A stretch of 64,000 nt of DNA, from the IMG/VR virus record IMGVR_UViG_3300049893_002454, positions 1 through 64,000 of that record. One strand, written 5' to 3'. Of this stretch, positions 25,262-52,033 are shown in pieces. Position 1 is the first letter of the stretch. Each line of letters begins with the position of its first letter. This stretch comes from a virus. Under the pieces are notes generated by a model. The model ran no database searches and was not told the origin of the DNA. It saw only the letters and a list, made by a program, of their open reading frames with translations. The position numbers and the translations under genes were made by a program.

Positions 25262-26893
25262 ATGAGTTCAAAGATGATTGAGTTTGGTGAAACTTCGAGA
25301 GATTTAATTGCTAGTGGGGTGCGCACTTTAGCTAGGGCAGTGGCATGTACACTAGGTCCGCGAGGTAGGAATGTAGTTTTGCAAAGACCGGGGATGCCTC
25401 CACATGTTACCAAAGATGGAGTGAGCGTTGCACGAGAGATTTCCTTAAAAGATCCATTTGCTAATATGGGTGCACAAATGGTAAAAGAGGTGGCATCTCG
25501 TACGGCAGATCTTGCTGGAGATGGCACTACCACTGCAACAGTACTGGCAGATGCTATTGTTACAGAAGGACTTCGTCTAATTGTTGCCGGACATGATCCA
25601 ATGCCAATTAAGCGCGGGATTGATAAGGCTACAGATGCAATCGTGGAAGAGTTAAAGAAGCTCAGTAAGCCAGTAGATGATCTTAAAGAGATTGAGCAAG
25701 TTGCTACTATTTCAGCAAATGGAGATGCATCTATCGGCAAGATGATTGCTTCAGCTATGGATGTAGTTGGTAAAGATGGTGTCATTACGCTAGAAGAAGG
25801 AAAGGGATTCGAATCCACAGTTCGCTCAGCCGAAGGGTTTGAGTTCGATCGTGGCTTTTTATCAGCCCACTTCTGTAATGATAAGGAGAGGCAGCGCGTA
25901 GTTTTCGAAAAGCCGGTGCTATGGTTGATCAATAGCAAGCTAACCAGTTCAGTAGATATGGAAGAGATGCTTCCATTATTCCAACACTGTAGTCGCAATA
26001 AGCAACCACTAGTTATTATAGCGGACTCTGTAGAGGGAGAGGTGCTCGGTACCATGGTAGTGAACTCATTACGCAATTCTCTTGTATGTGCTGCAGTAAG
26101 AGCTCCTGGTTTCGGAGATGCTAAGAAGGAGATGATGGAAGATCTGGCGATTCTTACTGGCGCTCAAATTAAAGAAATTGGTCTAGAATCGAGACTGATG
26201 GATACACAGTTTACGGATCTTGGAACAGCAGAGCGAATTATTATTACTAGAGAAAAGACAGTTATTGTCGGTAAAAGTGGTACTGAGGACGCCATACAGC
26301 AGCGCGCTTCGCAAATTCGTCAAGAACTTGCACGGACAACTGACTTCCATGCTCGAGATGTGCTAAATAAGCGCCTGGCGAAGCTTATTGGCGGAATCGC
26401 GGTGATCGAGGTTGGTGCAGCAACAGACATCGAGATGAAGGAGCGCAAGGACCGCTTTGAGGATGCTCTTGCTGCCACAAGAGCCGCTATTCAAGAAGGG
26501 ATAGTTCCCGGTGGAGGGGTGGCTCTCGTACGCGCTTCCACTACCTTAGGTGCGTTTTCAACAGGAAATGCGGAAGAGGATATTGGAGTAAAGATCGTAC
26601 TGAAGGCATGCGCTGCCCCACTTATGCAGATAGTCTCAAATGCTGGAAAATCACCGGAGGTTGTGCTGGATAGAGTCAAGTCTGAATCATCTAGCGCATA
26701 TGGTTATGATGCCGCTACTCATGAATATCGCGATATGTTACAAGCAGGTATTATAGACCCGGCACAGGTTACTAGAGTCGCTATACAAAATGCTGCTAGT
26801 ATTAGCTCATTGATTTTAACCACCGAAGCCGTGGTAGCGTTTGAAGAAAGTGATAACAATAAATCTACATCACTCAATTCAATGATGCAATGA
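25262..26893 (+). CDS. groEL: Chaperonin GroEL (Hsp60)
   Basis: A full-length 543-residue group I chaperonin. ARAVACTLGPRGRNVVL, TKDGVSVAREI, DLAGDGTTTATVLADAI (ATP site), KDRFEDALAATRAAI with the hydrolytic Asp, and EGIVPGGGVALVRA are present, and equatorial, intermediate and apical regions are in order. The C terminus ends SLNSMMQ and lacks the usual GGM repeat tail. A strong AGGAGAG site precedes the ATG. No recognisable GroES is in the window, so it may use a host, a distant, or a novel co-chaperonin. Confidence 0.97.
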   Translation: MSSKMIEFGETSRDLIASGVRTLARAVACTLGPRGRNVVLQRPGMPPHVTKDGVSVAREISLKDPFANMGAQMVKEVASRTADLAGDGTTTATVLADAIVTEGLRLIVAGHDPMPIKRGIDKATDAIVEELKKLSKPVDDLKEIEQVATISANGDASIGKMIASAMDVVGKDGVITLEEGKGFESTVRSAEGFEFDRGFLSAHFCNDKERQRVVFEKPVLWLINSKLTSSVDMEEMLPLFQHCSRNKQPLVIIADSVEGEVLGTMVVNSLRNSLVCAAVRAPGFGDAKKEMMEDLAILTGAQIKEIGLESRLMDTQFTDLGTAERIIITREKTVIVGKSGTEDAIQQRASQIRQELARTTDFHARDVLNKRLAKLIGGIAVIEVGAATDIEMKERKDRFEDALAATRAAIQEGIVPGGGVALVRASTTLGAFSTGNAEEDIGVKIVLKACAAPLMQIVSNAGKSPEVVLDRVKSESSSAYGYDAATHEYRDMLQAGIIDPAQVTRVAIQNAASISSLILTTEAVVAFEESDNNKSTSLNSMMQ

Positions 26894-33911: not shown

Positions 33912-34483
33912 ATGGATGGCTCTCTGAAGATGAGAATAAAGCTATACGCAGCCAATTAGCTCAATCATTGTCGTTTGAGTCTGTTGCACATAGATACTCT
34001 AGTCATGTAGAATCAGTTAATTCAGTTTCATGGACACATAAATGCACATGCCCTTTCCACAAAGGTGGCAGTGAACGGACCCCCTCGCTTAATTTCTCAG
34101 ATACAGAAAAGACATTTTTTTGCTATGGCTGCTCTGCTAGGGGCGATATATTTGATTTTATAGGAATGATTCGCGGTTCACCGGGAAGCGCAGTAGCAGA
34201 TAGATACCGTGAATCAAAAAACATTTCAATAGACTTATCCGCTACTAAAGTTACGAAGCCAAGAATAAATATCCACGAGTTCAATATTCAATTAAGTGTA
34301 GCATTTAGAGATTACCTTTCTTCATTGAGTGACTATTTGACATTATGCGCTGAGATCGAATGGGCAGAGAGTGTATTTAAACGCATAGACGAGCGATTTT
34401 CCAAGTTGACTGATGAGGATGTCGACCAAGTTAGAAATTTTTCATCACAGATACTAGTTGAGCTTGAACGGAGAAGGATATGA
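33908..34483 (+). CDS. Primase zinc-binding (CHC2) domain as a separate protein
   Basis: The 191-residue product has a CHC2-type zinc ribbon: CTCPFHKGGSERTPSLNFSD and TFFCYGCSARGDIFDFIGMI. This is the DnaG N-terminal domain, which recognises template priming sites. The rest (about 90 residues) is helical, with no TOPRIM. The TOPRIM half lies 24 kb downstream at 58966. GTG start overlapping the previous stop. Confidence 0.85.
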   Translation: MNGWLSEDENKAIRSQLAQSLSFESVAHRYSSHVESVNSVSWTHKCTCPFHKGGSERTPSLNFSDTEKTFFCYGCSARGDIFDFIGMIRGSPGSAVADRYRESKNISIDLSATKVTKPRINIHEFNIQLSVAFRDYLSSLSDYLTLCAEIEWAESVFKRIDERFSKLTDEDVDQVRNFSSQILVELERRRI

Positions 34484-35703
34484 GTGTAAAGTTAGGCGTG
34501 ATAGGAGATGTTCATTTAGGTGCCAATCAGTGGGCCGGTAGACAACATCCTTCTTTAAATGTCAATACTAGATTAATAGACTATGCCGAGACACTCGATA
34601 TTACGATAGATGAGATGGTAGTCTCAGGTGTCACAGAAATTATATTTACTGGCGATATCTTTGAGCACAGGTTCCCATCAATTGTTCAACAAAAGATATT
34701 CTCACAAAGCCTACATCGTGCACTTTCAAATGGTATTGAGCGCATTCATATTGTAATTGGAAATCATGACCAGCAGCGAATTCATGACACCACAACGTTG
34801 TCCTACCTTAAAGAATTAAACTTACCAAATATACGCGTATATGATGAGATGTCACTGCAAACTATAAAGTGGTTCGACAAACCCATTGCTAATCTAATAC
34901 TTATGCCATATCGAGATAGATTATGGTTAGAGCAGGATACGCATGCCGGGGCTATAGAAGTGCTTCAGTCGAACCTAAATGCCATCATGTCCATAAGAAA
35001 CAATATACTCCCTACTATTCTCATTGGTCATATGACTATTGAAGGCACGTTCGTAGATGAAGGCTATAAGGATATGTATGGGGAAAATCAGCTAACATTG
35101 CCAAAAAGTATGTTTGATGGCATAAACGTTACAATTATGGGTCACATACACAAACCAGATATTATTAGCGATTCCCCGTATATCGCTTATATTGGCTCAA
35201 TGGAAAAGCGCGGCGGTTTTGAAGATCATGATAAATTATATGCAATCATAGACTTAGAAACCGCCAATGTGGAATATCGAAGGGAGCCATGTAGAAATAT
35301 GTGGGACATGTCTCTAGACTACACATCTCTTATTGTCGGCGAGCAGTTGATGGACAGAGTGCGTTCTGACATAGCCCATTATGCACAGCATCATGAATTG
35401 GCCCACAGTATAGTGCGTCCAGTTATTAGAATCTGTGCAGAAGATGAGCAGTTTCTCGATTCACGCTCTGTCATTTCCCATTTAAAGGATATGTATCATG
35501 TACACTTCTGCACAGAAATTAAGCCGGAAATAATGACATCACGCCAATCAAGAGATGATAGAATTACAGAAGATATCTCTCATGTGCATGCATTGCGTAT
35601 GCATCTAGAAAATTCTATCGAAGATGCCGACATGCGTCGGCTACTCATAGATGCTGGGGCAGAGATAATACGTGCAACAGGAGATGGAAATGCTCCCCAT
35701 TAG
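34480..35703 (+). CDS. SbcD/Mre11-like nuclease subunit (T4 gp47-like)
   Basis: A 407-residue metallophosphoesterase. VIGDVHLG (DxH), FTGDIFEHR (GD), IGNHDQQ (GNHD), LIGHMTIEG and IMGHIHKPD (GH, GHxH) give the full set of metal ligands. It forms the nuclease half of a Rad50-Mre11-like complex with the next gene and resects or degrades DNA ends. It overlaps the ATPase gene by 14 bases. Confidence 0.9.
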   Translation: MSVKLGVIGDVHLGANQWAGRQHPSLNVNTRLIDYAETLDITIDEMVVSGVTEIIFTGDIFEHRFPSIVQQKIFSQSLHRALSNGIERIHIVIGNHDQQRIHDTTTLSYLKELNLPNIRVYDEMSLQTIKWFDKPIANLILMPYRDRLWLEQDTHAGAIEVLQSNLNAIMSIRNNILPTILIGHMTIEGTFVDEGYKDMYGENQLTLPKSMFDGINVTIMGHIHKPDIISDSPYIAYIGSMEKRGGFEDHDKLYAIIDLETANVEYRREPCRNMWDMSLDYTSLIVGEQLMDRVRSDIAHYAQHHELAHSIVRPVIRICAEDEQFLDSRSVISHLKDMYHVHFCTEIKPEIMTSRQSRDDRITEDISHVHALRMHLENSIEDADMRRLLIDAGAEIIRATGDGNAPH

Positions 35704-37795
35704 ACTAGAATTACGTAATTTCAAAAGCCACACGCATTCAGTCATAGACTTTAATTTCTCATCTGCTCTAGTTATCGGAGAGAAGTCAGGAGATCCAAGA
35801 AGGTCTAACGGTAGCGGCAAATCATCGCTACTAGAGTCACTATCATTTGCTTTATATGGGGAGTCTGGCGATAAAAGTGCAGATGATGTAGTTAAGAAGG
35901 GGCAAATTACTTGCGAGGTGATATTAGATTTCACTCATGATGGTCAAACGTACCAGATAAAAAGAACACGCAATGCAAAATATTCAAAAATGATTACTGA
36001 ATTTTGGCGTGTTGTCGATGATGGCCGGCGGGAAAAATTACATGGGGACACTAATTCAAATACCAATGCAATTATATGTGATACTATTAAATGTACCTAT
36101 AATGTTTTTTTAAATTCTGTCTATTTTAGACAGGGTTCATTTTTTGACTTTACACAAGGAACATTCTCTACTAGGCAGGCCTTATTAAGTTCATTGTTAA
36201 ATTTAGAAGATTGGGCCAAATATCAGAAGGTTGCTAAGGCAAAATTCGATAGATTAGATGGTGAGATAGAGGCAACTAGGAATAGCCTGCTTCGCTCTGA
36301 GTCGGCAGAGGCTTCATTACGCGCATCGCAAGATGCGTTAATAGATGTCACTACGCAGATAGATGTAATAAATTCAGAAAATGCAGATCTTGAAGGGCAG
36401 ATACTTGCTTTAGAGGAAGCCATCATCTCTGACTCGGATAGGGGTCGTCAAGCCTCAAAAATAAAAGAATTAGAAATTGAACATGCAAGATTAAATAAAG
36501 AACTCAAACGTCTTATTGACATGCGTCATGCCTACGACTCTACGTTAGTCGAATTAAATAGCTCGCTGACCTCACAAAAGAATTCTATAGCAGACAAGGA
36601 AGCCAAGATTGCTACATTAACAAGTGAATTAGCTGATGCAAATATTGATTTGCGTAAAAGCGATATTGTTCGGATGGAATCATCATTAGTTGACGGGAAG
36701 GCGAAGACTAGACAAATACATACTCAAATAGAAACTTTAACTAGCGGAGATCAATGCATCACTTGTGGGCACGAATGGACAGATTTAGGGTCAAAGCAAG
36801 CAGAATTAACATTGAGACAGTCAGACCTTGATTCATTATTGGCAAAAATACAGCGTGCTGAAGGCAAACTAGCTGCGGCAAGGTCAGATCTGGAGAAGAT
36901 ATTAAGGAAATCAGCTGATTTAAAGATGCTACAATTACAGCTACCAGCCCTCAATGATGGTATGAATACCTTGCTGCTAAGGATAGCTTCCACCAGTGGA
37001 CAGCGCTCTGCAATGCTGGAAGACATACTTATTGTCGAGAAAAGACTAGAGGAGACTAGTTCTGCGTTAGGTTCAATTTCAGATTTAGAATTATTAGATT
37101 CATATGCAGAAAAGCTACAGCAGCTTACTGGCAATAAAGATAGGCTTAAGGAAAATGTTGAGCGCGCGCGTGCATTGTTTATGAGGAGCGGTCAGTTAAC
37201 TGCCCAAATTGAGGCATTGCAGTCAGTTCTTGAGTCTAGAAATAGAGAGATTAGTCATCTTGATGACTGCATCAAGCAGGCTACAGTATACGGTCAGTTA
37301 ACTAAGGCTTTCGGTAAGGATGGGGTTCAGGCGATTATCATTGACAATGTCGTTGATGAGCTTACTAGAGCTGCAAATGCATGGCTATCTGAATTCTCAA
37401 GTGAACCAATGCACCTATCATTCGTCACACAAAAGCAGGGAACCAAGGGAGAATGGAAGGAGACATTTGATATTGAGATTAATACGCGAAATGGACCACA
37501 GGCGTGGCACTCGCTAAGTGGCGGGGAGAAATTTATAGTCTCATTTGCGATACGGTTGGCTATAGGCTCGATTCAGGCCCGTAGAATGGGTGGTGCCACA
37601 CAACTGCTTTTATTAGACGAAGTTAGCTCTAGCCTAGATCCATATAATATAGACGTATTTGTTACAATTATTCGTAAACTAGAAAAACATATGAAGATCA
37701 TGGTTATTACTCATGATCCTGCACTGAAGGATGAGTTTGAAACTATAATTACAGTCAAAAGGACGCATTCTGGCAGTGAGGTGGAGATATCATAA
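35690..37795 (+). CDS. SbcC/Rad50-like ATPase subunit (T4 gp46-like)
   Basis: The 701-residue product begins with RLELRNFKSHTHSVIDF and a Walker A region SNGSGKSSLLE that follows an inserted loop (GEKSGDPRR), as in other phage Rad50-type proteins. Long coiled coils frame a zinc hook CITCGHEW. The C-terminal part has WHSLSGGEKFIVSFAIRLA (signature), LLLLDEVSSSLDP (Walker B) and VITHDP (switch). ATG 35690 is chosen for its AGGAG spacing of about 7 bases; upstream in-frame starts would lie closer to or on the site. Confidence 0.92.
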   Translation: MLPIRLELRNFKSHTHSVIDFNFSSALVIGEKSGDPRRSNGSGKSSLLESLSFALYGESGDKSADDVVKKGQITCEVILDFTHDGQTYQIKRTRNAKYSKMITEFWRVVDDGRREKLHGDTNSNTNAIICDTIKCTYNVFLNSVYFRQGSFFDFTQGTFSTRQALLSSLLNLEDWAKYQKVAKAKFDRLDGEIEATRNSLLRSESAEASLRASQDALIDVTTQIDVINSENADLEGQILALEEAIISDSDRGRQASKIKELEIEHARLNKELKRLIDMRHAYDSTLVELNSSLTSQKNSIADKEAKIATLTSELADANIDLRKSDIVRMESSLVDGKAKTRQIHTQIETLTSGDQCITCGHEWTDLGSKQAELTLRQSDLDSLLAKIQRAEGKLAAARSDLEKILRKSADLKMLQLQLPALNDGMNTLLLRIASTSGQRSAMLEDILIVEKRLEETSSALGSISDLELLDSYAEKLQQLTGNKDRLKENVERARALFMRSGQLTAQIEALQSVLESRNREISHLDDCIKQATVYGQLTKAFGKDGVQAIIIDNVVDELTRAANAWLSEFSSEPMHLSFVTQKQGTKGEWKETFDIEINTRNGPQAWHSLSGGEKFIVSFAIRLAIGSIQARRMGGATQLLLLDEVSSSLDPYNIDVFVTIIRKLEKHMKIMVITHDPALKDEFETIITVKRTHSGSEVEIS

Positions 37796-38282: not shown

Positions 38283-39169
38283 TCATTATATCTCTGTTGC
38301 CATCAGATACAGAAATAATCTCAGGTATACCACAACAGGTTGAGATTTCAACAAATATTCCATCAACCATATATTATACACTAGACGGAACTCTGCCTAC
38401 GCCATTATCTAGTGTATATACCGAAGCAGTTAAGCTACCTACCTCTGTAGGTATGGTGACTGTGAGCGCTATAGCATATTATTTCGATGGCTATGCTACT
38501 GTCCCAAGCGCCGTGCTGACGCAAACGTACGGCACAGATAACACCGATCTTCAGCGGACAAGATATGTATTTTTCGAAGGTATAGTTTACTCATATCCTG
38601 GTGGAGCTGATATTCCATTGTATTATGATTTTGCTGGCGATCCTGTATTTTACATAGATATCCCTCTAAGTGAATTAGATATGATACAACCGGAAACATT
38701 GCCCGACGGTACGATTGTAGGCACTGATAACCAGATTCAACAATTATCACAGGAGTATACTGGATCGATTATCGATGATTCAGTGATCATGCATTCATCG
38801 GCAAACAATCAAACATCAGTCAGAACCGATGCAATGTACTTTCTGATAGATGGCCGCAGTTCTGCTGAAAATAGCCTATCTGTCAATATAATGAATGGAC
38901 CGCATATGTCACTGCGAGATTCTAGAACATTATGGGGAGGGATTGACTATATTTCATTGGGAACATCGGCTTATATTAGCGGATCAGCAACGAGATATCA
39001 TTATAATAGAGATAAAAATGTTATTGTCTTTTCCTACTTCGACTCATCTAGTGGTAGATGGGTGAAGTCAATTCAGGACTTACCGCCCGCACAAACCAAT
39101 TTGCCGCGCCCCCACTTTAGTAACCCGCATGTGTTTAAATGGTTTCAGTACGGCAGACATCAAAGCTAA
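38279..39169 (+). CDS. Protein with chitobiase/beta-hexosaminidase C-terminal-like domain
   Basis: 296 residues. The N-terminal ~90 residues contain IYYTLDGTLPTPLSSVYTEA, the Y-T-x-D-G-x-x-P-T pattern of the CHB_HEX_C beta-sandwich domain, often found on phage or surface proteins. The rest is beta-rich with no recognised domain. A virion or adhesin role is plausible but unproven. ATGA overlaps the previous gene. Confidence 0.6.
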   Translation: MIIISLLPSDTEIISGIPQQVEISTNIPSTIYYTLDGTLPTPLSSVYTEAVKLPTSVGMVTVSAIAYYFDGYATVPSAVLTQTYGTDNTDLQRTRYVFFEGIVYSYPGGADIPLYYDFAGDPVFYIDIPLSELDMIQPETLPDGTIVGTDNQIQQLSQEYTGSIIDDSVIMHSSANNQTSVRTDAMYFLIDGRSSAENSLSVNIMNGPHMSLRDSRTLWGGIDYISLGTSAYISGSATRYHYNRDKNVIVFSYFDSSSGRWVKSIQDLPPAQTNLPRPHFSNPHVFKWFQYGRHQS

Positions 39170-39176
39170 GGTAGGT

Positions 39177-40826
39177 ATGCTAGTTAAAAGTGATAAACTA
39201 AAGATTTCAGCATCTGCAATTAAGACGTATACGCAGTGCCCCAGAAAATATTATTATACATATATAGAGCGACTTCCAAAAAAGAAGTGGCCCCACATTG
39301 ATTTGGGTAATTTCGTTCATGCTGTATTAGAAGCATTTCATAATTTACTTAGAGATAATCCGCGTGGAGAAGAGGAGTGGGGCAATGTCCTAAAGGATAT
39401 TTGTCGTAATACTTTAAAGAAGCATCCTTTAACCAAAGAGCAGAGAAAGCAAGCAACTGCCATGCTGGACACATATCTATCTAAATTGCGCTCTGATGGA
39501 TTACCCAAAGTAATATGTAATGAGAAATCATTTACCATAGAACTTGCTGGTGATATAGTATTGCGTGGATTTATAGATAGAGTGGATCAGATTGATGGTG
39601 GCGTAGAAATTGTTGATTATAAGGGGCTTGCTATTGATACTGCGATTCCTACTCCATCAGGATGGGCTACTATGGGAAGTCTATCTGTTGGTGATATGGT
39701 ACTAGGAAGCGATGGAAGCCCAACGCAAGTGATGGCAAAGTCGCAGGTACATAATAGACCGTGCTATAGGCTAGAATTTTCCGATAATTACAGTATAGTG
39801 TGCGATAATGTTCATCTATGGAAGGTAATTTTTAGAGACACAGATAATGGCAATGAGGTCTCTGATATCATTGACGCAGAAGCGCTATGCCACATCTATG
39901 AGAACAATAAGCACATTCTTATAGATATATCTAACCATAGAGGCATTGATTTGCCAGAATCAGAACTACCATTCAGTCCTCGTATGCTAGGAGAGTATAT
40001 TGGTAGGACTTGTGATGATTTACATGCATCTAATCTGACAAATATTAAATTGAGTGAAATGCTTATAGAAAGTGATGGCGCTATACCATTAAAATATCTT
40101 AGAGGTTCTCGCAGTCAGCGTATTGAATTACTAACCGGATTGATGGATCACGGTGGATCATGGGATAAGGCTACAAAGCGAGTCTCATTCACTACATCAA
40201 ATCCAGCTCTGCTAGATTCTGTAAGTGAGCTACTGCATACCTTTGGGATTACATTATATGGCGATGACGAAATTAATACTATTAGCTTCACGCCGACTAC
40301 ATTTAATCCGTTCAATATATCATCTTATACACATATGGTAGACGGGTTTCTAAAAACAAGAGATTGGCACGTACCAACAGTCGATCGACGCACCCTGACA
40401 AATATCACTAAGATTGACAGCGTACCAACGCAATGTATTTCAGTTGCCTCAGCAGATTCACTATACTTATGTGGTGATTCATTTATATTAACGCATAATA
40501 CTGGAAAGTCTAAGTATCTTGACGAATTTCAATTACTCGTATATGCTTTGGCAATATGGCATGAAGATCCTAATATGGAGCGTATAAAAGGTTCTTATAT
40601 AGTATTAGGAGAGGGTTCTAAGCCTATTCATTACACTATTTCTAAGACGGATGCGGACAGATGTGTTGGGGAAATTATTAAAGTAGCAAATCAAATTCGC
40701 TCCGACTTAAGTTGGGAGACGCGCCCCACTAGGCTATGTTCGTATTGTGACTTCCAAGCAGCATGTCCTGCTACCAAACAGGCTGATTTTAGTAGCTGGG
40801 GAAATGCCATTACGGAGATAGAATGA
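39177..40826 (+). CDS. PD-(D/E)XK (Cas4/RecB-like) Fe-S nuclease, interrupted by an intein
   Basis: The 549-codon frame encodes a ~257-residue nuclease once a 292-residue intein is removed. The extein starts ISASAIKTYTQCPRKYYYTYI, with the first Fe-S cysteine, and has FIDRVDQIDGGVEIVDYK. TGKSKYLDEFQLLVYALA completes the catalytic D-x-K motif across the junction (DYK|TGK). It ends RLCSYCDFQAACP, the CxxCx5C Fe-S cluster pattern of Cas4/AddB-type nucleases. It would process DNA ends with the gp46/47-like complex. Start chosen at 39177 after the previous stop. Confidence 0.88.
   Translation: MLVKSDKLKISASAIKTYTQCPRKYYYTYIERLPKKKWPHIDLGNFVHAVLEAFHNLLRDNPRGEEEWGNVLKDICRNTLKKHPLTKEQRKQATAMLDTYLSKLRSDGLPKVICNEKSFTIELAGDIVLRGFIDRVDQIDGGVEIVDYKGLAIDTAIPTPSGWATMGSLSVGDMVLGSDGSPTQVMAKSQVHNRPCYRLEFSDNYSIVCDNVHLWKVIFRDTDNGNEVSDIIDAEALCHIYENNKHILIDISNHRGIDLPESELPFSPRMLGEYIGRTCDDLHASNLTNIKLSEMLIESDGAIPLKYLRGSRSQRIELLTGLMDHGGSWDKATKRVSFTTSNPALLDSVSELLHTFGITLYGDDEINTISFTPTTFNPFNISSYTHMVDGFLKTRDWHVPTVDRRTLTNITKIDSVPTQCISVASADSLYLCGDSFILTHNTGKSKYLDEFQLLVYALAIWHEDPNMERIKGSYIVLGEGSKPIHYTISKTDADRCVGEIIKVANQIRSDLSWETRPTRLCSYCDFQAACPATKQADFSSWGNAITEIE
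39624..40499 (+). other. Class 3 intein with decayed endonuclease
   Basis: A 292-residue intein begins GLAIDTAIPTPSGWATMGSL with Gly at position 1 instead of Cys, Ser or Ala, and ends THN before a Thr. The class 3 triad is visible: Trp in VHLWKV two residues after the block B His (39819-39821), Cys in block F TQCISV (40434-40436) and Thr in block G THN (40491-40493). A LAGLIDADG-like part (MLGEYIGRTCDD, LLTGLMDHGGSW) lacks the second catalytic acid, so the endonuclease is probably inactive. Confidence 0.88.
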
Positions 40827-41644
40827 ATCAGTATGAAGTTACATATGGCATAGATTCTGGTCGCAAATGGATTTCTGGTCATATACCGATGAAGAGCGGT
40901 ATAGTACTTTTTATCGATACACGTACCGGGGTTGGCATAGATCAGATATATAAGTACATATCTGATTTTATACGCTACCAAGCAAGACAGATGACTATAC
41001 CATCGTATAGTACAGAAGATTTGATTCAGGAGCTGACCGTAATCGCACTGGCGGCCATTCCAGACTATTCAATTGAAAAATCTGCAAATATGCTTACTTT
41101 TCTACAGAACCATATAAAAAATAGAATGGTTAATATATACAAGCATGCAACTGAGAAATGTCGGACAGCAACACATGGTACATATAGATTTTGTAAGACA
41201 AAGTGTCCATATTGCGAACATACTTTTATCTTTGATGACAATGTTGGTATGCCATCCTGTTGTGTACGCTGCAATGCAGATACGTCGATCGGTAGGTGGA
41301 AGGCTTACCCTATTCCAGTCCCTGTGTTGTCAGCCGATGAGGAGATTCATCTGCAAGATGGAGGGAGAACCACTATTAGCGAATGTGCTTCACCAGAAGA
41401 TGTATCAATACTGGGATTTAGAGCGGTGGATCCAGAAGTAGATGTAGTTAATAACCTATCAATAAATAGCATAATTGATGGGCTTGAGCCCTCTACACAG
41501 CATATAATTAATCTTTTTTTGGAGGGCAGGACTTTATTTGAGATCTCTGCAGCAGTTAGATTATCCACATCTGCTATCAAAGCCAGGCTGCAGTCGCTGT
41601 CCAAAAATAAAGAACTGCTAGAATCCTTAGGTAAGGATGAATGA
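40823..41644 (+). CDS. Sigma-like RNA polymerase factor with zinc insertion
   Basis: 273 residues. ISDFIRYQARQMTIPSYSTE, DLIQELTVIALAAI and LTFLQNHIKNRMVNIYKHA resemble a sigma-70 region 2, and LEPSTQHIINLFLEGRTLFE and ISAAVRLSTSAIKARLQSL resemble a region 4 HTH. Between them lies a CPYCEHTFIF...CCVRC zinc cluster, unusual for sigma factors. It could direct phage transcription, perhaps late genes. Family assignment is by pattern only. The ATG overlaps the nuclease stop. Confidence 0.65.
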   Translation: MNQYEVTYGIDSGRKWISGHIPMKSGIVLFIDTRTGVGIDQIYKYISDFIRYQARQMTIPSYSTEDLIQELTVIALAAIPDYSIEKSANMLTFLQNHIKNRMVNIYKHATEKCRTATHGTYRFCKTKCPYCEHTFIFDDNVGMPSCCVRCNADTSIGRWKAYPIPVPVLSADEEIHLQDGGRTTISECASPEDVSILGFRAVDPEVDVVNNLSINSIIDGLEPSTQHIINLFLEGRTLFEISAAVRLSTSAIKARLQSLSKNKELLESLGKDE

Positions 41645-45547: not shown

Positions 45548-46762
45548 ATGTTAGTAAATATAGAAGATATCAACAATATAGAAAAGCAGCTCCTTTTTTC
45601 TGTTGAGCCGCTGCGAGTAGAACATACTATAAGCTCTTTTATTAAAGAAATTGCACCCAGAGTTGATGCCAAAGGATTTAGAAAGGGAATGGTCCCAGAT
45701 AATGTTATTAGGCATCAGTATAAAGATGCCATTTTAGCGGAATGTTCAGCTAGAATGGTTCAAGAGGAAGTAATCACCTCTATTCGGGATAGGCAATTAA
45801 AGGTAGTCGGATCTCCTGTCTTAATTGAGAAGGATAGGATGTCCAATCGCAAAAGCCATGTTGGCGAATTTATGTTAGATGGTTCATTTAGTTTTTCGGT
45901 CATGGCAGATTTCGAACCTGAGCTTAAGGTTATAGTGCCTGATGACTTACATATCTCAGAAGCCATGCCTTCATTAGATAGCTTAGTTGATGACGATCTT
46001 CGTAAGGCACAGGCAGCGCTCGCACAGTTGGATTTCGTGGAGCGCCCGGCAAATAAGGATGATCAAGTAGCTGTAGAATTCCTTGATGGAAGCAATAACC
46101 ATGCATCAATTATGATATCTGATAAACCAGATATATTTGCTTCTCACGAAGACTTTATCGGCAAGTCAGCAAATGATGAGCTAGAAGTTCCGCTAGCTGA
46201 TGGAAGTGCGGTATCAGTGCGGATTACCGCAGTATTTGCGGTAACTATGCCACAGATTGATAATGAGTTCGCACGATCATCAATGTTTGAATCACTTGAT
46301 GATATGAAGAAGTCACTTGCTGCTAAGAGATCTCACGATTATTCTACTCCACTTAGAGCTAAGATATACTCTGAGATACTAGCACAACTAGTTGCAGCAA
46401 ATCCAGTAGAGATACCTGGACGCTGGGTTGATGCTGAGGTAACAACAATATGTCGCAGACTAAATATTGAAGCTCAGCCAGGCGAGCTACTCGTTTCATT
46501 TAAAGAATTGGCACGTAGGAATATTTTATCAAATCTATTTCTAGATTCCATCTATCGTGATCATGAAAATATTCATATGTCTGCTGATGAGGTCTTCGGT
46601 ATAATAGAGAGTGAGGCGCAGAAGATTGGACGAACTCCTGACGAGGTACTTACACACTTGAGGAACTCCGGCCAATATGAGCTTCTAATGTCCTCCTACG
46701 AGAGAAACAGAGCCATAGATTATCTTATTTCACAAGCACAGGTCAAACAGGAGCAAGTATGA
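45548..46762 (+). CDS. tig: Trigger factor (ribosome-bound chaperone)
   Basis: 404 residues. The ribosome-binding signature is GFRKGMVPDNVIRHQYKD (family GFRxGxxP). The middle region (RPANKDDQVAVEFLDG, VRITAVFAVTMPQIDNEFAR) corresponds to the PPIase-like part, and the helical C-terminal part holds the long arm (FESLDDMKKSLAAKRSHDY). It is slightly shorter than the usual ~430. It docks at the ribosome exit on L23 and shields nascent chains. A 22-base gap separates it from the giant gene, with GGAG before the ATG. Confidence 0.88.
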   Translation: MLVNIEDINNIEKQLLFSVEPLRVEHTISSFIKEIAPRVDAKGFRKGMVPDNVIRHQYKDAILAECSARMVQEEVITSIRDRQLKVVGSPVLIEKDRMSNRKSHVGEFMLDGSFSFSVMADFEPELKVIVPDDLHISEAMPSLDSLVDDDLRKAQAALAQLDFVERPANKDDQVAVEFLDGSNNHASIMISDKPDIFASHEDFIGKSANDELEVPLADGSAVSVRITAVFAVTMPQIDNEFARSSMFESLDDMKKSLAAKRSHDYSTPLRAKIYSEILAQLVAANPVEIPGRWVDAEVTTICRRLNIEAQPGELLVSFKELARRNILSNLFLDSIYRDHENIHMSADEVFGIIESEAQKIGRTPDEVLTHLRNSGQYELLMSSYERNRAIDYLISQAQVKQEQV

Positions 46763-47048: not shown

Positions 47049-47378
47049 ATGACAAATAACTTCTATGATCTAGTACAAGTAAGACAGCTGAGAGGCTGTA
47101 AGACTTGTAGAACAGTACAATACACATTTCCACAACCAATAGGAAAGAGCATAGAAGATTATCTGTTGCCTTTCGGCAAGCTAGCTTACGATCTTGATAT
47201 ATACTCTATAATCAAGATTGATAATGATGCAATATTATTGCAATCAAAACTTGGCACGGTAGATATGCATGTCAAGTTCAAAGACAAAGAGGATTTGAGG
47301 ATTGTCAGTTTATTCGAGGTGCAGTTAGCTGCCTACCTTCAGAGTGAACTAAGTATCCCAATCTCAGGAGTTTATTAA
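47049..47378 (+). CDS. Uncharacterised 109-residue protein
   Basis: It has RGCKTCRTVQYTFPQ (CxxC) and beta-rich sequence. No family recognised. It overlaps dnaE by one base, so both are probably co-expressed. Confidence 0.6.
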   Translation: MTNNFYDLVQVRQLRGCKTCRTVQYTFPQPIGKSIEDYLLPFGKLAYDLDIYSIIKIDNDAILLQSKLGTVDMHVKFKDKEDLRIVSLFEVQLAAYLQSELSIPISGVY

Positions 47379-50300
47379 TGGATAATTTCGTAAATCTTCA
47401 TTCACATACATACCACTCTCATATGGATGCGATTATCCGCATCTCAGATTTATTTAAACGAGTAGCAGAGCTAGGGCAGCCAGGGATAGCAATTACCGAT
47501 CACGGTGTATTAGCCGGCATACATGAGGGGTACAAGGAATATAAGAAGTATAAGGATCAGGGCCAGCATATCAAATTTATCCCTGGCAGTGAGATATACT
47601 ACTGTGAAGATTTAAATGATCCTAAGTCTAAACGCAGACACTTAGTGGTCTTAGCTCAGAATGAGGAGGGATACCGAAATCTATTGCAGATCAATGCTGC
47701 TGGATTTAATAACTCAGTTACGGTAATGGGAAGGCAATTTCCGCGAGTTGATCTGAATATTCTTAAAAAGCATTCAGCAGGACTATTTGTAAACTCGGCA
47801 TGTGGAGGATCTCCTTTCGCATCGGCAATTTTTGAAAAAAATATCAAACGAGCAAAGGATTTAGCCTCTACCTTTAGAGATATCTTTGGTGATAAATTCT
47901 ATATTGAGCTACAGCCTCACGAGCTGCAAAGAGGAGATTTTAATCAGGCGTTCTTAAATGAGCAATTGAAGTTTCTGGCTGATGAGCTAAAAATAAATAT
48001 GATTGCCACATGCGACTCTCATTATCTCACAAGCAAGCATGAGAAGTACCATGATATGGTTCTGGCCATTGGAGCAAAGAAGGCATTAGAGGATCCTAAA
48101 CGGCATCGATATGCAACATATCAGGCATGCCTTATCTGTGCGGGTACAGGAGAGTACCCTTCTGATTCCAAGAAGGAATGTTACCAGTGCGGAGGATCAA
48201 AATACAGCTCTATCAAACCCTGTCCAGAGTTTTATTTGAAGGAGAGTAGTCAATTAAATAAGTATTTTGCACAGAAGTTCGATAGTGGAACAGCTGATGC
48301 ACTAATTGCAAATACAGTAAAGATTGCTAACGAATGTGAGTATCCTGATTATATGGCTCCCAAGGGGCATAGATTGCCAGCCTTTCCATGGAAAGATGAG
48401 CCTGATGCAAAAGAGTTTGAATCATGGGTGACAGATAAACCATCATTATCATCATTGCCAAAAGATGCATCGTATCTAAGATTTCGTATCAAAAAGGCTT
48501 TTGATAAGTATACAGCAGATTTTTCTAAAGAAAAGAAGCAGGAGTATTGGGAGCGTGTAAAAAAAGAACTTGATATTCTAGAGATGCGCAACTTCAGTTC
48601 GTACATGCTAATCGTAGCAGACTATATTCAGTGGGCTAAGAATAATGGTGTAACTGTCGGGCCAGGTCGTGGATGTTTAACTGGCGACACTAAAGTACTT
48701 ACAGCAAACAGAGGTTTTACTGACCTTGCTGACATTAAAATTGGAGATAAGGTATTCTCCCATACGGGGGAAATACGAAATGTCTCTGACACTATGCGTT
48801 ATGATGTTGCTGATGAAGAATTATTATCTATAAAGACGGAACATTCTTGTGGCAATATAGTCTTAACAAAAGATCATCGGGTCTACGGATCAAAGTCCGA
48901 TCCGGCTCATAGAAAGTTGATAAAGTGGATAGCAGCGGAGAACCTATCGGTAGGCGACTATATATTCATGCCATACCCAAAAAGAGAGTCCATTGCAGTC
49001 TCGGATATCATTTTACATGAACGCGACTCTAATGGTAATAGCATACAGCGACAAATTGAGATTGATTCTAAATTTGCATATTTTATAGGGCAGTGGGTGG
49101 GTGCTGGATATTATTTAGTTGACGATAACCGCCAGCGTATAGGCATAAGGTTGGATATACGAAATATAGAGGAGGCGAGTAAAGTACATACGTATCTTAA
49201 ATCTATGGGATTCAATTCTCGACTGTCGGAAGATAGCGTCACGCATTCACATGTTATAGTAGACAGCCAACCACTGTCCAGAATGTTGTCAGACCTATTT
49301 CCCAAATATAATAATACTGATGACTCCAGATACATCGGACAATTCACTAACCTTCCTGATAATCTGCTTACTGAATTGATCCTAGGACTAGCATCAGCTA
49401 TTGAGAGCACGGAAATTAATAATCAAATTGATATAATATCAGTTAATACACGTAGTAAAACTTTGGCTCTGGAGCTTAAAGAGTGCTCATTATACTTGAT
49501 GGTCCCAACATCAATACTGGTCAATTCTATAGATGATACGTATAAGATTGATTTTAGACTGCTTTATGACGATACAATCGATAATACCGGTTATCTATGT
49601 AAGATCTTAGACATAACGACATCAAAAGCAGATTATGTATATGATATTACTGTAGATGAGGATCATTCCTATGTAACATCAAATTATGCAGTGCATAATA
49701 GCGTAGGAGGATCATTAGTGGCTTACTTGCTAAATATCCATATGGCAGACTCAATTAAATACGGGCTATTATTTGAGCGGTTCCAAAATAGGGAAAAGAA
49801 GTCACTCCCCGATATAGATTGTGACTTTGCTCCAAGTGGTCGAGAAAAGGTCATACAATATTGCAGAGATAAGTATGGTGAGGATAAGGTCGCCTTCATA
49901 TCTAATATTCTGCGCTTAACTCCAAAATTAGTCATTAAGGACGTGGCTCGCTCATTGGTTATAGGTGGCGATAAAAGTACTGCATTTAAGATAGCTAATG
50001 ATGTTACAGCCAGCATTCCAGACCTGATAATAGAGGGTAGTAAGAGAATTAAGGTTGATACGATGGCCAAGGCAATGCAGGCCTCCGAGAAGTTGACCAA
50101 GTTTATACAAGAGTACCCTATTGTGCTAGAATATGCCAATGAGTTAATTGGGGTGCCTCGAAGTTTTGCCACTCATGCTGCCGGCATAGTTATATCAGAC
50201 ACTCCGCTACCAGAATGTGCTCCGCTTAGGCGAGACGGTGATGGAATTATATCGGTTCAGTATGACAAGGACCAATGTGAGGAGATCGGATTAGTTAAAA

Positions 50301-52033
50301 TGGATATTCTCGGTCTTGATACACTAGACGTATTGGATGAGACTAGAGAGATAGCTAATTCATTAGGCATTAACCTACCAGATCTTGGTGATCTAGAGGA
50401 CGGAGATCCTAAAGCATATAAGCTCATACATCTGGGACATACTACTGGAATGTTCCAATTAAATAACAGTATGACTCCGCTATGCAAAGCAATGCTGCCT
50501 AAGACCATATCTGATATAGCAGCTATCAGTGCTATAGGTAGACCCTCGGTAAGTAAGCAGGATAGGATAGAATTCATAAACCGTCGTTTTGGGCGCAGTC
50601 CAATAACATATGTTAATAAGTGTTTAGAGCCAGTATTTAAGCATACCTATGGCATTCCAGTGTATGAAGAGGATTTGCTTAAACTCGCTAAGATAGTTGC
50701 CGGATGGGATCTATCAGAAGCAGATGGCCTGAGAAAATTGACTAAATTAAAGGAAAAGGGGGCACATCTAGCAGCGGAGCTAGAAAAGAAATTTATTGTA
50801 GATGCAATGAGAACCTCTGACTTATCAGAAAAAGAGGCAACAGAAATCTGGACTTCAGTCGTAGCACCATTCGCCTCGTATGCATTTAACTTATCACATG
50901 CAATTATGTATAGTATGATTTCATATCAAACTGCATATTATAAAGCGCATGCAGTTGGTCCTTTTATATGTGCAAACCTTAATAATCAGACTAAGGGAAA
51001 TAAGAAGGACCGGGCTGAGATTATTGATGCATTAAAGAAGGATGCTAAGTTATTTAAAATCAATATTCAGGCATGTGATATAAATATCTCTAAAGAATAT
51101 TATACTATGAAGGATAAGAATACTATTGTTACCGGACTTGGAGCTGTGAAAGGTGTTGGCAAAGGAGGGGCCCTTAGAGCTATCATTGCCGGGCAACCAT
51201 ATGCCTCATTCCAAGACTTCTTACATCGGACGCCAGGTAATTTAGTTAATAAATCAGTAATAGCATCACTAGCTTTGGCTGGTGCCTTCGATAGCCTGGG
51301 GATATCAAGAAAATATATCTTTGAAAACTTTTTAGAAATTCGCAAGGAATTACAGGCTTATGCTAAAAAGCATGGTGAGGTGGTGACTGTTGAAATAGAA
51401 GAGGAGGTTGAGGTCCCAGATGTAGCTGACGATAACAATTTGACAGCTACTGATAGTGCATCTGATGATAGTTACGATGGCGACTTTGAGGAGCGGTCAG
51501 TTAAGACAAAAGTAGTGATCGAGAAAAAGATTAAGAGATCATTCAGATTAACCCCCGAGCTTCTTGCCGCATTCGTGCCATCTACTCATGAAAAAGCAAA
51601 TATAGAGTTTACCATAAGAGAAAAGCTCGAAGGAGAAAAGAGTACTCTTGGAGAATATCTCTCTGGTGACATATCTACCTTATATCCAGGATTTTTTATT
51701 GAAGGTAGGTATGCCCAGTCATATACTAGCTTACAAACAATGGTTAATAATATTAACTTTCCTACTGAAGGAATTATTACTTCAATAAGTGAAATTCAAA
51801 TAAAGAAAGAAGGAAAGAATAAGGGTCGATTTATGGGTAAATTGACAGTAGAAAATTTGCGCGGAGAAAGTGTAGAAGTTACTATATGGGCAGATCAATA
51901 TGAAAAATTAAAGAAGATACTTCGAGTAGGGTTGCCGATAAGAGGCATGTTTAAGGTCAACGATTACGCTGGTACTAAAACCCTCGTTTTAATAAATTTA
52001 GAATCATACTATAAAAGTTCAGGTGAGCAATGA
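47378..52033 (+). CDS. dnaE: DNA polymerase III alpha subunit (DnaE), interrupted by an intein
   Basis: 1551 codons; about 1209 residues after intein removal. N-terminal PHP: NLHSHTYHSHMDAIIRISD, AITDHGVLAG. A zinc-ribbon insertion with C251-C254 and C268-C271 lies in the PHP-to-palm region. Core: GPGRG|SVGGSLVAYLL (interrupted by the intein), SLPDIDCDFAPSG (catalytic aspartates, about 811-817), SFATHAAGIVIS, VKMDILGLDTLD. A helix-hairpin-helix region and C-terminal OB-like part follow. It is the probable replicative polymerase. CAGGAG precedes the ATG. Confidence 0.95.
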   Translation: MDNFVNLHSHTYHSHMDAIIRISDLFKRVAELGQPGIAITDHGVLAGIHEGYKEYKKYKDQGQHIKFIPGSEIYYCEDLNDPKSKRRHLVVLAQNEEGYRNLLQINAAGFNNSVTVMGRQFPRVDLNILKKHSAGLFVNSACGGSPFASAIFEKNIKRAKDLASTFRDIFGDKFYIELQPHELQRGDFNQAFLNEQLKFLADELKINMIATCDSHYLTSKHEKYHDMVLAIGAKKALEDPKRHRYATYQACLICAGTGEYPSDSKKECYQCGGSKYSSIKPCPEFYLKESSQLNKYFAQKFDSGTADALIANTVKIANECEYPDYMAPKGHRLPAFPWKDEPDAKEFESWVTDKPSLSSLPKDASYLRFRIKKAFDKYTADFSKEKKQEYWERVKKELDILEMRNFSSYMLIVADYIQWAKNNGVTVGPGRGCLTGDTKVLTANRGFTDLADIKIGDKVFSHTGEIRNVSDTMRYDVADEELLSIKTEHSCGNIVLTKDHRVYGSKSDPAHRKLIKWIAAENLSVGDYIFMPYPKRESIAVSDIILHERDSNGNSIQRQIEIDSKFAYFIGQWVGAGYYLVDDNRQRIGIRLDIRNIEEASKVHTYLKSMGFNSRLSEDSVTHSHVIVDSQPLSRMLSDLFPKYNNTDDSRYIGQFTNLPDNLLTELILGLASAIESTEINNQIDIISVNTRSKTLALELKECSLYLMVPTSILVNSIDDTYKIDFRLLYDDTIDNTGYLCKILDITTSKADYVYDITVDEDHSYVTSNYAVHNSVGGSLVAYLLNIHMADSIKYGLLFERFQNREKKSLPDIDCDFAPSGREKVIQYCRDKYGEDKVAFISNILRLTPKLVIKDVARSLVIGGDKSTAFKIANDVTASIPDLIIEGSKRIKVDTMAKAMQASEKLTKFIQEYPIVLEYANELIGVPRSFATHAAGIVISDTPLPECAPLRRDGDGIISVQYDKDQCEEIGLVKMDILGLDTLDVLDETREIANSLGINLPDLGDLEDGDPKAYKLIHLGHTTGMFQLNNSMTPLCKAMLPKTISDIAAISAIGRPSVSKQDRIEFINRRFGRSPITYVNKCLEPVFKHTYGIPVYEEDLLKLAKIVAGWDLSEADGLRKLTKLKEKGAHLAAELEKKFIVDAMRTSDLSEKEATEIWTSVVAPFASYAFNLSHAIMYSMISYQTAYYKAHAVGPFICANLNNQTKGNKKDRAEIIDALKKDAKLFKINIQACDINISKEYYTMKDKNTIVTGLGAVKGVGKGGALRAIIAGQPYASFQDFLHRTPGNLVNKSVIASLALAGAFDSLGISRKYIFENFLEIRKELQAYAKKHGEVVTVEIEEEVEVPDVADDNNLTATDSASDDSYDGDFEERSVKTKVVIEKKIKRSFRLTPELLAAFVPSTHEKANIEFTIREKLEGEKSTLGEYLSGDISTLYPGFFIEGRYAQSYTSLQTMVNNINFPTEGIITSISEIQIKKEGKNKGRFMGKLTVENLRGESVEVTIWADQYEKLKKILRVGLPIRGMFKVNDYAGTKTLVLINLESYYKSSGEQ
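48674..49699 (+). other. Class 1 intein in DnaE, decayed LAGLIDADG endonuclease
   Basis: A 342-residue intein begins CLTGDTKVLTANRGFTDL (Cys1), has block B VLTKDHRVYG (TxxH), block F DYVYDITVDEDHSYV, and ends AVHN before Ser. The endonuclease parts are FAYFIGQWVGAGYY and LLTELILGLASAIES, where catalytic acids are missing, so homing activity is probably lost. It sits in the conserved GPGRG|S motif of DnaE. Confidence 0.93.

Follow-up and report, generated by a model that had tools for sequence, protein, structure and literature searches.

The window, a stretch of 64,000 nucleotides, lies in a 125.5-kb IMG/VR virus record and carries a nuclease gene interrupted by an intein. The same kind of gene, with an intein at the same site, is found in two other records, IMGVR_UViG_3300043177_000268 (L012 below) and IMGVR_UViG_3300013132_000072 (L058). 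The features of the locus are listed here; in motifs, a slash marks a splice junction or the insertion point.

39177-40826, + strand: gene for a Cas4/RecB-type PD-(D/E)XK nuclease with an intein; open frame of 549 aa, coding 39177-40823
39177..39623, + strand: N-extein, 149 aa (PF12705 E 1.3e-34, PF01930, TIGR00372; 79% identity to the L012 N-extein)
39624..40499, + strand: class 3 intein, 292 aa, Gly1 to Asn292 (held-out class 3 HMM; alignment with 6bs8 and 6rix; junctions of DxK/T homologues)
39624..39827, + strand: N-terminal splicing half, blocks A-B, with D61, H64 (B:10) and W66 (B:12) (alignments)
39828..40394, + strand: linker and degenerate LAGLIDADG endonuclease (PF14528 24.7 bits; alignments; pN about 0.45)
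40395..40499, + strand: C-terminal splicing half, blocks F-G, with Cys271 (F:4), Thr290 (G:5), His291 and Asn292 (alignments)
40500..40823, + strand: C-extein, 108 aa (translation; 70% identity in L012)
40824-40826, + strand: stop codon of the nuclease gene

The likely start of the nuclease is at 39177, the longest open frame beginning at 39129. The PDDEXK_1 profile (PF12705) gives the strongest match to the host protein; matches to Cas4 models are weaker, with PF01930 above its cut-off and TIGR00372 (cas4, E 4e-11) at 43.1 bits, under its cut-off of 65. The profile match and the motifs GFIDRVD, VDYK and QLLVYALA (of QxxxY type) identify the host, by sequence, as a Cas4/RecB-like PD-(D/E)XK nuclease. 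The N-extein holds the acidic GFIDRVD motif, VEIVDYK and a putative Fe-S cysteine, Cys21 (TQCPRKYYY); the C-extein holds TGKSKY, the QLLVYALA motif and a putative Fe-S Cx2Cx5C (LCSYCDFQAACP). All four putative Fe-S cysteines are kept in L012, and the intein separates the first from the other three. A search of the PDB with the joined exteins returned no relative at E <= 0.01. Neither the sub-threshold TIGR00372 score nor the gene context supports CRISPR Cas4 in the strict sense: none of the neighbours tested matched a cas gene, the neighbours being phage replication and repair genes and sigma-factor genes. An SbcD- and SbcC-like pair lies 5′ of the nuclease gene (34480-37795), in the same order as in L012. 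Immediately 3′, a sigma-70-like factor (40823-41644), whose start codon overlaps the nuclease stop, carries a Cys4 zinc-ribbon-like stretch with a weak YacG match; this gene order is also kept in L012.

The intein comprises residues 150-441 of the open frame (GLAIDTAI...FILTHN), beginning Gly1-LAIDTAIPTPSGWATMG, and is inserted directly after the motif lysine (VEIVDYK/TGKSKY). The lysine-glycine junction was assigned by alignment and matches the junctions of DxK/T homologues; homologues lacking an intein are uninterrupted at this point (TDYKTGKW, RDYKTGNQ, IDYKTGKY). The boundaries and the position behind the DYK lysine coincide exactly with those proposed in an initial sequence-only reading of the window. 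Block B reads CDNVHLWKV, block F VPTQCISV and the end ILTHN, followed by Thr+1. As expected of class 3, position 1 is Gly and not a Cys, Ser or Thr nucleophile. The class is defined by Trp at B:12, Cys at F:4 and Thr at G:5 (the WCT set, as quoted in PMC3196547); in an alignment with 22 other class 3 inteins, W66, C271 and T290 occupy the positions of this set, which never vary there, and H64, H291 and N292 are likewise invariant. The B:10 His, penultimate His, terminal Asn and nucleophilic +1 residue are accordingly all present, as H64, H291, N292 and Thr+1. An HMM built from 21 phage class 3 inteins, with the window and L012 left out, scored the intein at 228.6 bits, whereas none of 1,000 shuffled copies exceeded 4.8 bits and the class 1 intein in the window's DnaE reached 19.1 bits. 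The best PDB matches are solved structures of class 3 DnaB inteins (6bs8/6own, 6rix, 6riy), with whose WCT residues W66, C271 and T290 also align; gp41-1 entries, which are of class 1 and include an engineered WCT variant, have far lower scores. The Pfam Intein_splicing model made no call on the intein alone, and an AlphaFold model from a two-sequence alignment (pLDDT 49) speaks neither for nor against a HINT fold. Judged by its sequence, the element is a class 3 intein in both class and site, in line with the Gly start and WCT set first read from it.

The initial reading also held this host gene to be unusual for a class 3 intein. That view does not stand. Kelley 2016 (PMC5050341) described 40 class 3 inteins at a single PD-(D/E)XK-motif site of a Cas4 RecB-like exonuclease in C1 mycobacteriophages, an exonuclease that ranks second by size among the mycobacteriophage groups with inteins. 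One of these phages, Catera, has the intein in gp206, near-identical homologues such as Bxz1 gp204 being intein-less (PMC3029335), and efficient splicing of the gp206 intein from a model precursor has been reported (PMC3196547); the assignment of gp206 to the same C1 gene family and to class 3 draws on these three papers. In alignments with phage proteins, the window shares the site with Dexes and Traft412 (both VVDYK/G..N/TG), Sauce (PVEMK/S..N/T), ScoobyDoobyDoo (VVEFK/A..N/T), Frankenweenie (LVDWK/G..N/T), Rollin (VFDLK/G..N/TG) and a human-gut phage contig (VDHK/G..N/T). Inteins thus occupy DxK/T in Mycobacterium, Streptomyces, Pseudomonas and gut phages. An IMG/VR search matched at least 600 stretches, at least 589 of them encoding relatives, and a [DE]x[KR]/.../T junction occurs in 27 of the 80 best loci (a count of the junction motif, host genes not being checked one by one). 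Because of the C1 group, the site shared by many unrelated phages and the intein-less homologues, we conclude that the Cas4-like nuclease is a common host gene for class 3 inteins. DxK/T of these nucleases is a widespread phage site, well beyond mycobacteriophages, and a known class 3 insertion site is now extended to an uncultivated phage; the general understanding of such inteins is unchanged by the window intein.

Comparison with known systems shows where the window intein departs from them. It shares with the C1 (Bixzunavirus) inteins, such as that of Catera gp206, the class 3 WCT set, the Cas4/RecB-like host and, as seen on phage Sauce, insertion into PD-(D/E)XK right after the (D/E)xK lysine with Thr at +1. 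It is nonetheless distant from them (about 28% identity to Sauce), and whereas they measure about 330 aa with LGDG and DSDG endonuclease motifs, it is 292 aa long and has lost both acidic residues. The best match among phage records, Streptomyces phage Frankenweenie gp79 (OQ921725; 34% identity, E 2e-50), is annotated as a Cas4 exonuclease and has its intein at the DWK/T site, but that intein is 331 aa long with intact LGDG and DTDG. The mycobacterial DnaB inteins (6bs8, 6rix) belong, by sequence, to the same splicing-domain family and have the WCT triad; they differ in host (DnaB) and in that the crystallised sequences, of 139-146 aa, are without endonuclease.

The decayed endonuclease, whose loss of both catalytic acidic residues had escaped the first reading, is the only notable trait of the window intein. 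Relatives at the site have LGxWLGDG as motif C and LLxGLMDTDG as motif E; the window has LGEYIGRT, with the Asp lost, and LLTGLMDHGG, with Asp changed to Gly, so that neither LAGLIDADG motif keeps its acidic residue. About 70 aa are also missing between the motifs, around and after motif C. The two relatives line up with the window in a graded series. Motifs are intact in L058 (LGDG and DTDG; 392 aa), half altered in L012 (LGDG and DSNG; 372 aa) and replaced in the window (IGRT and DHGG), and PF14528 scores fall from 44.7 through 31.2 to 24.7 bits, against a cut-off of 22.5. With L058 as outgroup, the middle region has 36 changes unique to the window and 8 unique to L012 (p 2.5e-5); the splicing parts have 7 and 3 (p 0.34). 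Between the window and L012, pN is 0.15 and 0.18 in the exteins, 0.14 (at 75% aa identity) and 0.24 in the N- and C-terminal splicing halves and about 0.45 in the middle, omega values being rough since synonymous sites are saturated (pS about 0.8-1). By these sequence comparisons the homing endonuclease of the window has decayed and the splicing parts are as constrained as the exteins; the motif residues suggest that DNA cleavage has been lost. The three inteins allow endonuclease decay to be compared in three steps with splicing residues kept, which makes them useful for the model of the intein homing cycle. A Cys-rich, zinc-finger-like insert lies between the LAGLIDADG motifs of the L012 (L012:4448-5563) and L058 inteins; the window and the other aligned class 3 inteins lack it.

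The PF14528 match, being still above cut-off, and the LGDG and DTDG of close relatives at the site would fit an intein that remains mobile by means of an active homing endonuclease. Replacement of both acidic residues, the missing segment after motif C and the faster change of the endonuclease region on the window branch make this very improbable. The same decay could be taken to mean that the whole element is a splicing-dead pseudogene that has left the phage without the nuclease, the more so as inactive class 3 inteins are known in remnants (PMC3196547; compare the reported Arthrobacter Arth_1007). Against this, D61, H64, W66, C271, T290, H291, N292 and Thr+1 are all intact, the reading frame is open, and splicing halves and exteins have matching low pN; we give this explanation little credence. 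The window intein is probably splicing-competent, as far as its residues tell.

The established class 3 pathway begins with an attack of Cys F:4 on the N-terminal junction, continues with transfer of the N-extein to the +1 residue and ends with cyclisation of Asn (PMC7664689, PMC3196547). Applied to the window, the nuclease would be translated as an interrupted precursor in which Cys271, positioned by His64, Trp66 and Thr290, attacks the Lys149-Gly1 bond; transfer of the N-extein to Thr+1 and cyclisation of Asn292 would then ligate the exteins as ...VDYK-TGK... Since ligation would rejoin the catalytic lysine loop with the Q-motif 3′ of it and the four putative Fe-S cysteines, the nuclease is expected to be active solely after splicing. 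We infer this dependence, which the initial reading also proposed, because the insertion lies right behind the catalytic lysine and divides the Fe-S ligands.

Retention of a mobility-dead intein with intact splicing residues might alternatively reflect its co-option as a splicing switch that would hold the Fe-S nuclease inactive until a timing or redox signal acts, for example through Cys F:4. Were this true, selection would retain the intein after loss of homing. For mycobacterial DnaB inteins, conditional splicing has been published (PMC6195587, PMC7360933). Purifying selection is expected in any case, however, since the host protein needs splicing, and most relatives at the site retain endonuclease motifs. 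Such a switch therefore seems a slim prospect. The explanation that we hold with high confidence is that of a class 3 intein at the conserved site after DxK of a Cas4/RecB nuclease which most likely only splices, homing having been lost. LAGLIDADG homing would probably have brought the element into a common ancestor of the window and L012; later, in the window lineage, the endonuclease would have decayed, with constraint on the splicing parts remaining at the level seen in the exteins.

L012, found by scanning viral contigs with the N-extein (scans with the intein alone and with SbcC found nothing), is the nearest relative, the inteins being 48% identical; an intein tree joins the two at full support. 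In the same tree the Bixzunavirus and Myrnavirus Cas4 inteins group with the TerL intein of LittleE (100/97), consistent with the RecB-TerL1-d cluster in Kelley 2016 (PMC5050341), and other Cas4-site inteins fall elsewhere. These inteins form at least two separate clades, so that more than one entry into the DxK/T site is probable; at least two host changes are needed on the starred branches, the deeper forks being weak.

The window's second intein (48674-49696, 341 aa) interrupts a DnaE open frame (47378-52033) at GPGRG/S and is of class 1 (Cys1...HN/Ser). It has no Pfam endonuclease match; its FIGQWVGAGY and LILGLASAIES resemble degenerate LAGLIDADG motifs. The corresponding site is empty in the related record that holds L012 (GPGRGSVGGSL). 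The virus also encodes a Cpn60-type chaperonin (25262-26893; PF00118 E 1e-66) and a trigger-factor-like protein (45548-46762; PF05697, PF05698).
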